From assembly GCA_009786715.1 (NCBI GenBank), contig WQRN01000032.1, positions 1-12,099 of the forward strand: a stretch of 12,099 bases of DNA, read 5' to 3'. The notes under the pieces were generated by a model, which saw only the letters and a program-made list of their open reading frames with translations, was not told the DNA's origin and searched no databases. Made by a program: the position numbers and the translations under genes. Below, one piece after another: positions 3,478 to 4,888 of this stretch (position 1 is its first letter; each line of letters begins with the position of its first letter). Source of the DNA: Treponema sp. GTDB lineage: Bacteria; Spirochaetota; Spirochaetia; Treponematales; Breznakiellaceae.

Positions 3478-3556
3478 GAGAAGAAAGGAAAGGTGTCAGT
3501 CACCTACGCTATATATGGTGTATAAAAAATTTTAGGCTACACTATTAGTAGCGTGG

Positions 3557-3591
3557 GGCGCGCTACTCGGGCTAAAGCCCTCGCGCCTACT
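3557..3591 (-). repeat. Second-type GTAG REP-like hairpin inside R2
   Basis: On the minus strand the sequence begins with GTAG and continues into a stem: GGCGCG at 3557-3562 pairs with CGCGCC at 3582-3587, and inside it GGGCT at 3569-3573 pairs with AGCCC at 3576-3580. A GTAG tetranucleotide at the foot of an imperfect GC-rich hairpin is the classical REP design, but its sequence is unrelated to the GGTGACTGACACC arms of the surrounding element. It is probably a mobile repeat of another family that landed in R2. Copy number elsewhere cannot be seen here. Confidence 0.55.
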
Positions 3592-3632
3592 TAATCTCAT
3601 TGACTTTTATCGGGCGCCACGTCTTGCTGCTT

Positions 3633-3661
3633 TTTTCATCTACACGCTATGCGTGCATAAT
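3633..3661 (+). promoter_or_regulatory. Possible weak promoter for arfB within R2 insert
   Basis: TTTTCA (3633-3638) and CATAAT (3656-3661) are separated by 17 bp and would start a transcript about 20 nt upstream of the arfB ATG. The -10 matches consensus at 5 of 6 positions and the -35 at 4 of 6. It lies inside the DNA inserted in R2, so the insert may have supplied the promoter. This rests on pattern alone. Confidence 0.3.
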
Positions 3662-3687
3662 CGGACGGGTGACTGACACCACTTAAT

Positions 3688-4119: not shown

Positions 4120-4196
4120 GGTGTCAGTCACCTACACCACTAATAGCGTAGTCAAAAATTTTAACCACACCACATATAGCGTAGGTGACTGACACC
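4120..4196. repeat. 77-bp inverted-pair REP element left of RAYT (R3)
   Basis: The element begins GGTGTCAGTCACCTAC and ends GTAGGTGACTGACACC, so its ends are perfect inverted repeats. Each arm read inward to outward is GTAG followed by a small hairpin, GGTG-ACTGA-CACC. The centre holds AAAAATTTT. It has the same length and core layout as R4 on the other side of the transposase. It lies between the arfB stop and the RAYT stop (13 bp away), where the long hairpin could also end or protect both convergent transcripts (inference). Confidence 0.88.
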
Positions 4197-4209
4197 GTCA
4201 ACCGTCAAA

Positions 4210-4674
4210 TTAAATGCAATTCAAGCTACTAACACCATTACTTCTTAAATATGCTCCTGATGACTTCCAATCTTCTGGGGCGGTTACTAACCCTGCTTTT
4301 ACCGGGTTTTGGTCGATGTAGTTCATCACAATATCAAATTCTTTTGAACTTTGAATGACTTTTGCAAAATATCGATCTCCCCATAAATGATCCGTTGCTT
4401 TATGAATACGATTCCAACATTTTGCCGAGCCAGTCTTAATCCATTGCATTATATCTGCCAAATTGGTTCCATCTGCAGGTTTAATAAGCAGATGAAAATG
4501 TGTTGGCATGATACAGAAATTAAGCAGCTCAAAACAAAATTTTTCCTTGGCTTCTTCAAGGATAAGCAGAAAAATTTTCTGCCCCAGAGGTTTTTCAAAA
4601 ACCCTGGTTTTATTATTCGTCCTTGACGTAACATGATACGTTGCTCCTTCGATAAAGATTCTTAACTTGCGCAC
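4210..4674 (-). CDS. RAYT: REP-associated tyrosine transposase (Y1/HUH family)
   Basis: A 154-residue protein of the IS200/IS605-related TnpA-REP group. Visible hallmarks: ATYHVTSRTNN at the N-terminus, the HUH metal-binding motif PTHFHLLIKP (His59, His61), the LWGDRYFAKVI segment (97-106) and NYIDQNPVKAGLV (118-130), whose Tyr119 is the expected nucleophile for single-strand cleavage. The start is GTG (4674-4672) with GGGAG 6 nt upstream. Known family role: RAYTs bind and cut REP hairpins at a GTAG or GGAG foot and are thought to spread them. Here the gene is bracketed by R3 and R4, whose arms carry exactly such GTAG-hairpin units, so these are its probable substrates. All key residues are present, so the enzyme may be active. 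Confidence 0.92.
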   Translation of the reverse strand: MRKLRIFIEGATYHVTSRTNNKTRVFEKPLGQKIFLLILEEAKEKFCFELLNFCIMPTHFHLLIKPADGTNLADIMQWIKTGSAKCWNRIHKATDHLWGDRYFAKVIQSSKEFDIVMNYIDQNPVKAGLVTAPEDWKSSGAYLRSNGVSSLNCI

Positions 4675-4708
4675 AGTTTACTCCCGCGACACATAAATTT
4701 TTGAATTT

Positions 4709-4729
4709 GTGTCAGCTATATATGGCGCG
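4709..4729 (+). repeat. Degenerate REP-family relic upstream of RAYT
   Basis: GTGTCAG joined directly to CTATATATGG corresponds to the left half of R2 with the nine bases TCACCTACG removed. It lies between the RAYT start and R4. It is short and partly AT-rich, so chance resemblance is possible. Confidence 0.4.
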
Positions 4730-4776
4730 CAGATGCGTGACGCTTGATTGAAATTGAAAATTTTTAAAAATTTGTT

Positions 4777-4853
4777 GGTGTCAGTCACCTACGCTACTAA
4801 TAGCGTAGTCAAAATTTTTAGCCATACCACATATAGCGTAGGTGACTGACACC
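4777..4853. repeat. 77-bp inverted-pair REP element right of RAYT (R4)
   Basis: The ends are GGTGTCAGTCACCTACGCTA and its exact complement TAGCGTAGGTGACTGACACC, a 20-bp perfect terminal inverted repeat. The left half also contains an internal hairpin, CTACGCTA-CTAA-TAGCGTAG. The core is AAAATTTTT. It has the same length as R3, and 580 bp including the RAYT separate the two. In RAYT biology such paired inverted REPs are called BIMEs. Confidence 0.9.
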
Positions 4854-4872: not shown

Positions 4873-4888
4873 TGTTTCACGTGAAACA
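4873..4888. other. parS centromere-like site (ParB binding)
   Basis: TGTTTCACGTGAAACA is a perfect palindrome that fits the widely conserved chromosomal parS consensus TGTTNCACGTGAAACA at every position, and the symmetry extends to 18 bp (4872-4889). It lies in a short non-coding spacer between R4 and the META-gene terminator, about 6 kb from the probable oriC. parS sites normally cluster near the origin, where ParB loads and spreads and recruits SMC. No parA or parB is in the window. Confidence 0.88.

Follow-up and report, generated by a model that had tools for sequence, protein, structure and literature searches.

A stretch of 12,099 nucleotides from Treponema sp. (contig WQRN01000032.1, hereafter the window) carries a gene for a REP-associated tyrosine transposase (RAYT) between two near-identical repeats, which raises the question of whether gene and repeats form one system and, if so, what the transposase recognises. 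Our preferred answer, to which we assign a probability of about 0.77, is that the locus is a REPtron, in which a RAYT gene is accompanied by REPINs: short non-coding elements, made of inverted repetitive extragenic palindromes (REPs), that are mobilised in trans.

2428-2504: R1, repeat unit between divergent genes, right end decayed; left outer hairpin (2428-2440) intact, inner hairpins 2442-2457 and 2474-2489.
3492-3680: R2, repeat unit interrupted by about 107 bp of other sequence (approximately 3561-3667, exact borders set by eye) ahead of its right outer hairpin (3668-3680).
4120-4196: R3, intact REPIN-like unit; outer hairpins 4120-4132 and 4184-4196, inner hairpins 4134-4149 and 4167-4182.
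4210-4674, minus strand: RAYT gene, 154 aa, GTG start; HUH residues H59/H61, tyrosine Y119.
4777-4853: R4, intact REPIN-like unit; outer hairpins 4777-4789 and 4841-4853, inner hairpins 4791-4806 and 4824-4839.

The 13-mer GGTGTCAGTCACC occurs seven times in the window and in none of 200 dinucleotide shuffles, and its copies make up four units, R1 to R4, where a first-pass annotation of this DNA had counted two. R3 and R4 are, as that annotation stated, equal in length and alike in core layout (both 77 bp, 72 of 77 positions identical), and their 60-bp flanks are no more similar than shuffled sequence (18 and 15 of 60). The description of two inverted hairpin pairs round the gene holds for each unit taken singly, which is itself an inverted pair, but not for R3 and R4 relative to each other, which are in direct orientation. 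Perfect inverted ends of 20 bp were confirmed for R4; in R3 the perfect end-to-end stem is 16 bp long. An intact unit consists of an outer hairpin (GGTG-TCAGT-CACC), an inner hairpin (ACGCTA-NNNN-TAGCGT), a centre that varies and spans about 17 bp, and the inner and outer hairpins reversed; the two inner hairpins of each intact unit had been overlooked in the first pass. Covariance-model scores were 79.6 bits for R3 and 85 bits for R4, both of which belonged to the training set, and 64.8 bits for R1 (match at 2428-2497), which did not. As single-stranded DNA, R3 and R4 can fold end to end and favour that stem (z -5.1 to -9.4); this is the shape of a REPIN, and with its inverted REPs, conserved ends and variable spacer the unit fits such an element. 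The hairpins are clear, with 84.4% pairing over 55 arms versus 24-48% when these were slid. The sequence that splits R2 holds another hairpin (GGGCTAAAGCCC), the 15-mer of which recurs in a stretch of genome G172 (L224, around 3335), and perhaps represents a second, nested repeat family.

The protein encoded between R3 and R4 scored 101.7 bits against the NCBIfam model for REP-associated tyrosine transposases (NF047646, cut-off 80) and 37.9 bits against the IS200 model, below the cut-off of 55, and its best match is 4ER8. Judged by these matches, the open reading frame (ORF) encodes a RAYT-type rather than an IS200-type Y1/HUH protein. The HUH and Tyr residues that the first pass had described as retained are present as H59-x-H61 and Y119, the latter aligning with the 4ER8 residue counted as 115, which we take to be Y115, the catalytic tyrosine of E. 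coli TnpAREP.

A further proposal, that the RAYT recognises a GTAG foot ahead of the hairpin, had to be abandoned. The GTAG overlaps the hairpin stem by its final G (GTAGGTG, not GTAG+GGTG), this G being the first stem base and the GTA the edge of the inner stem (TAGCGTA). GTA precedes GGTGACTGACACC in 6 of 7 window copies and in 11 of 17 copies of the related genome G005, but in only 3 of 128 distinct contexts elsewhere, and in the G005 unit with three identical copies one end carries GTA, the other ACT. Moreover, the residues with which TnpAREP contacts GTAG are changed in the window RAYT (Q95 to G99, E100 to A104, H101 to K105 and R104 to Q108), only W94 being kept. At the sequence level, the canonical GTAG/GT[AG]G foot by which REPs are defined is thus absent from these units, and hairpin recognition probably rests on the GGTG/CACC stem and its asymmetric loop rather than on GTAG.

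Evidence that such hairpins accompany RAYT genes came from a scan with the RAYT alignment, which gave 27 loci, 21 of them titled Treponema sp.; neighbourhoods were counted for 25 RAYTs (L001-L024 and the window, leaving out L025-L027). GGTG-N5-CACC lies within 600 bp of 14 of the 25 and is far denser near them (46 in 27.3 kb) than away from them (11 in 161.5 kb), the loop being mostly uniform within a locus (TCAGT, TCAAT, ACAGT, TCAGG or CCAGG), with exceptions. Some other RAYTs have flanking repeats that are related but differ in their outer hairpins, and at still others among the loci examined no flanking repeats were found. A RAYT gene is characteristically flanked by repeated palindromes, and R3, R4 and the hairpin enrichment round RAYTs show that arrangement. 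One family RAYT with AGTGACTGTCACC repeats (L007) is on a 3.2-kb contig titled Fibrobacteria bacterium GUT307, reflecting either transfer between phyla or a binning error.

What multiplies can be seen in G005, a 1.6-Mb bin with a single RAYT match (L006) and at least ten units. The expectation that copies in a related treponeme would be mostly inverted pairs was borne out, as 16 of the 17 exact hairpins in G005 form eight inverted pairs 62-63 bp apart. Three of the units are identical at 76 of 76 positions within unrelated flanks; hence it is the 76-77 bp unit, bounded by GGTG and CACC, that multiplies. In an unrooted tree without an outgroup, the window RAYT groups with the G005 RAYT (support 97/97); once more distant RAYTs of the family are used to root the tree, the two lie outside a crown group of 26 rows (98/95), and the G005 RAYT is the only genome RAYT of at least 57% identity outside the crown in these trees, which took in only part of the RAYTs from the 99 positive genomes described below, many being absent.

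Near-identical direct repeats on either side of a gene are also what would be expected if R3, RAYT and R4 were a composite transposon moving as one piece, and the L004 and L016 RAYTs likewise have direct copies on both sides. The close relatives G001-G005 and G007-G015, however, carry a single RAYT match (9 of 14 genomes) or two (5 of 14), and in G005 the two copies nearest to the RAYT are mutually inverted, one of them is separated from the gene by another ORF, and a third copy lies apart. We therefore consider a composite transposon very improbable, and the first-pass label 'self-contained', which would have the RAYT move together with R3 and R4, is not supported. In G026, G028, G029, G081, G087 and other family genomes, more distant RAYT/Y1 homologues are present in at least 19 scored copies each, with as many as 154 candidates; unlike the low-copy RAYTs, these are possibly proliferating transposases.

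As a supporting result the first pass had named confinement of the repeats to genomes with this RAYT. In a family of 195 genomes, draft bins of unstated completeness, RAYT matches (E<=1e-3) were present in 99 and the 13-mer in 76, compared with 1 of 195 for a reversed control pattern. Contrary to that expectation, the 13-mer occurs not only in 49 of the 99 RAYT-positive genomes but also in 27 of the 96 RAYT-negative ones, with up to 77 copies (G176). The association is weak (Fisher p=0.003; p=0.13, 0.27 and 0.01 at RAYT thresholds of 1e-20, 1e-35 and 1e-54), and total copies are nearly equal (259 in RAYT-positive versus 254 in RAYT-negative genomes): the bare hairpin need not go with a detectable RAYT. 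The high-copy occurrences of GGTGTCAGTCACC (77 in G176, 38 in G178) are partly arrays with 51- or 57-bp spacing, and no Y1 transposase was found in these two genomes. The intact inverted pair is rarer, with 23 pairs in 9 of 195 genomes, nine of them in G005. Whole-unit searches with two covariance models, in which up to 24 candidates per genome were scored on both strands, matched at least 33 and at least 48 of the 195 genomes, with at least 11 units in G172.

The condition of the unit ends follows a different pattern. Among the units compared, ends are best preserved in the window and G005, where outer hairpins are perfect at 26 of 28 unit ends, versus 18 of 48 in seven other genomes; left out of this count are the identical G172 copy in L232, the G178 unit, the third G186 unit and a second set of 41 units. 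Our reading is that units persist and decay without a RAYT and are kept intact in the presence of a suitable one. The RAYT absences themselves are soft, since the genomes are drafts and a missing gene may be a gap. In G064, G081, G128 and G180 (L292, L290, L280 and L275-L279), units share the same inner pair and have other outer hairpins (GGGGTCTGACCCC, GGTGTCAGGCACC, GGTGCCTGGCACC), a pattern that suggests lineage-specific exchange of ends.

Several results weigh against this reading and against the REPtron as a whole. Strong unit matches occur in G172, G167, G175, G176 and G186, all without a RAYT match; a Y1 transposase (PF01797) was detected in only 1 of the 12 RAYT-negative genomes with at least four 13-mer copies; and RAYT-negative G178 contains four intact pairs of a different 70-bp element, with no Y1 match. 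G010 and G014, which carry other RAYTs, keep only 3 of 8 perfect ends, and the end comparison is biased, the window and G005 units having first been found by their exact hairpins. With the outgroup included, the window and G005 RAYTs form a grade and not a supported clade, and the notion of a window RAYT clade was dropped. Covariation in the hairpins is unproven: four of five measures showed no gain over column shuffles, and the lone gain, pairs changed on both sides (7 of 10), was reached by 7 of 500 shuffles. Finally, no pair of occupied and empty sites was found. Viral contigs gave no match to the 20-mer, and phage records a single match (27%).

Placement between genes bears on two further explanations. 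Genes were called crudely here, as ORFs of at least 100 aa; on this basis 35 of 39 units in the first set are intergenic, versus 12% of random windows, as are 35 of 41 in the second set, which includes weak units without outer hairpins. These counts include identical copies, namely three units in G005 and one pair in G172. Among the 56 units with both neighbours, 34 lie in divergent, 18 in tandem and 4 in convergent gaps, a further 14 being at contig or stretch edges. Control gaps weighted by available room give fractions of 0.37 divergent and 0.21-0.24 convergent, corresponding to P of about 2e-4 for the divergent excess and 1e-3 to 4e-3 for the convergent deficit; with the harshest control set (single-hairpin loci, 0.455 divergent) P for the divergent excess is 0.016. 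Single hairpins without the inner pair are unbiased (22 divergent, 16 convergent and 15 tandem, with 32 inside ORFs and 17 at edges). As far as is known, REPs of E. coli avoid divergent gaps, although a literature search gave no source for this; the placement of the treponeme units would be the opposite.

The excess of divergent gaps and the scarcity of convergent ones are consistent with a host regulatory module in promoter gaps, in which the paired palindromes TACGCTATATATAGCGTA would act as operators or as a two-way promoter, the outer hairpins and RAYT neighbourhood being secondary. In 6 of the 34 divergent gaps the unit is no more than 50 bp from both called ORF starts, and G157, G159, G118, G174 and G169 have inner pairs that lack the outer hairpins. 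However, sigma-70-like scores in the units show no excess over shuffles (8.03 versus 7.89), and identical whole units at three unrelated sites, clustering of outer hairpins round RAYTs and variable centres suit a mobile unit better, so that we regard a purely regulatory origin as quite unlikely. The same gap counts speak against the hairpins being mainly transcription terminators or mRNA-end structures spread by recombination. Single hairpins are often preceded by A-runs and followed by T-runs (AAAA-GGTG...CACC-TTTT), and R3 sits between convergent genes, but convergent gaps, which units avoid, hold only 4 of the 56, and the stem of an outer hairpin by itself is just 4 bp long, making a terminator role highly implausible. 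The REPtron reading can also be extended to embrace the divergent bias: a GTAG-independent RAYT in treponemes might spread four-hairpin REPINs preferentially to divergent promoter gaps, with some units, filling their gap, co-opted as two-way promoter/operator modules. Such co-option would explain why inner palindromes persist without a detectable RAYT, even without outer hairpins, but we hold this extended scenario to be doubtful.

Under the REPtron reading itself, the RAYT would act in trans on units made single-stranded by replication or transcription, as has been proposed for the E. coli and Pseudomonas systems (PMC3116915, PMC8266576). A RAYT dimer may bind the outer hairpin through its stem and asymmetric loop, cut through Y119 at sites presumed to lie at the unit ends, and rejoin the ends. 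The 76-77 nt unit would thereby be excised or copied into other gaps, and the RAYT gene itself would stay put in the chromosome. The inner hairpins probably aid fold-back of the strand or fix how far apart the two ends lie.

RAYTs, REPtrons and REPINs are already known; new here are the GTAG-less four-hairpin REPINs and a RAYT without GTAG-reading residues. REPINs of Pseudomonas fluorescens (Bertels and Rainey 2011, PMC3116915) are likewise inverted REP doublets, with a start-to-start distance of 71 bp there and 64 bp here, and share conserved ends, a variable centre, the long-hairpin fold, extragenic location and proximity to a RAYT. The treponeme units differ from them in having no free GTAG/GTGG foot, two extra inner hairpins, a preference for divergent gaps and few observed copies (at least ten in the 1.6-Mb bin). 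The E. coli TnpAREP REPtron (PMC6006769, PMC8266576; 4ER8) has the same HUH/Tyr fold and a single RAYT flanked by inverted REP pairs, but here the GTAG-contact residues are changed and the hairpin is far shorter, with a 4-bp stem and a 5-nt loop. Subclass 2.6 and class 3 of TnpAREP (PMC6006769) are described as similarly having no GT[AG]G consensus and weaker structures, and subclass 2.6 as having copies elsewhere in the host genome, a resemblance by description that implies no class assignment. In TIRtrons (PMC3733652) a RAYT-like gene (TIRYT) is also flanked by long, partly self-complementary repeats that do not match GTAG REPs; these are terminal inverted repeats, whereas here each side has a complete inverted pair, and R3 and R4 are direct. 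The same source names Spirochaetes in connection with CGTC repeats. Among the open-licence papers listed, none dealing with a RAYT-REPIN pairing in treponemes was found, and the RAYT literature, as far as sampled, deals mainly with GTAG-footed REPs, chiefly of Gammaproteobacteria. In the present family, mostly treponeme bins, GTAG-reading residues and foot have both been lost and the REPtron layout kept, which provides a natural test of how RAYTs choose their hairpins. The combination of one inner pair with outer hairpins that differ between lineages, together with the location in divergent gaps, makes co-evolution and domestication of the element testable.

The surroundings of the locus comprise the following features.

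Minus strand of the window: dnaA, dnaN, recF, dciA and gyrA (names from dnaA to gyrA given by inspection).
After the gyrA block: META-domain gene, RAYT gene, arfB, DUF4349 gene and amylase-like gene (the last named by inspection).
4717-4746, minus strand: conserved block ahead of related RAYT genes, reading CAAGCACCACGCATCTGCGCGCCATATATA in relatives; identified by eye in 24 upstream regions.
4873-4888: parS-like palindrome TGTTTCACGTGAAACA, beside R4 and also in the arfB-META gap of relatives.

The RAYT and its flanking REP doublets thus adjoin dnaA-dnaN-recF-gyrA, in agreement with the first-pass placement of a spirochaete REPtron near oriC. GyrA of the window shares 88-91% identity with the ten proteins that match it best in the 195-genome family, which includes named Treponema bins that we presume to be of termite-gut origin. 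The 30-bp block lies 43-72 bp upstream of the RAYT start codon in the window and is kept at most of the 24 RAYT starts compared, the proteins of which are about 60% identical; it looks promoter-like and is perhaps regulatory. Eight RAYTs (L001, L002, L004, L008, L011, L012, L013 and L016) are longer at the C terminus by about 130 aa (around DYFIYEYD..DTMYG), an extension which had no Pfam match in the three RAYTs tested and is absent from the window RAYT and L006.

The palindrome beside R4 is called parS-like for its resemblance to the parS consensus. Of nine stretches from relatives that contain both genes, seven have an exact copy in the gap between arfB and META, and one further stretch has a copy with one mismatch. 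In the window and in G002 the RAYT is flanked by arfB and META; in G001 it is beside arfB, on a contig that stops before META. A shared ancestral RAYT locus at this gap was rejected, because the G001 and G002 RAYTs fall inside the crown group and the window RAYT outside it, and because the parS-like site is on different sides of the gene; we claim neither orthology nor parS targeting. G002 has three copies of the palindrome joined to a REP hairpin (TGTTTCACGTGAAACACGTGGTGCCTGGCACC), distributed over both sides of its RAYT (L258, 1327, 1368 and 2343), and these fusions look as if REP amplification had copied parS.
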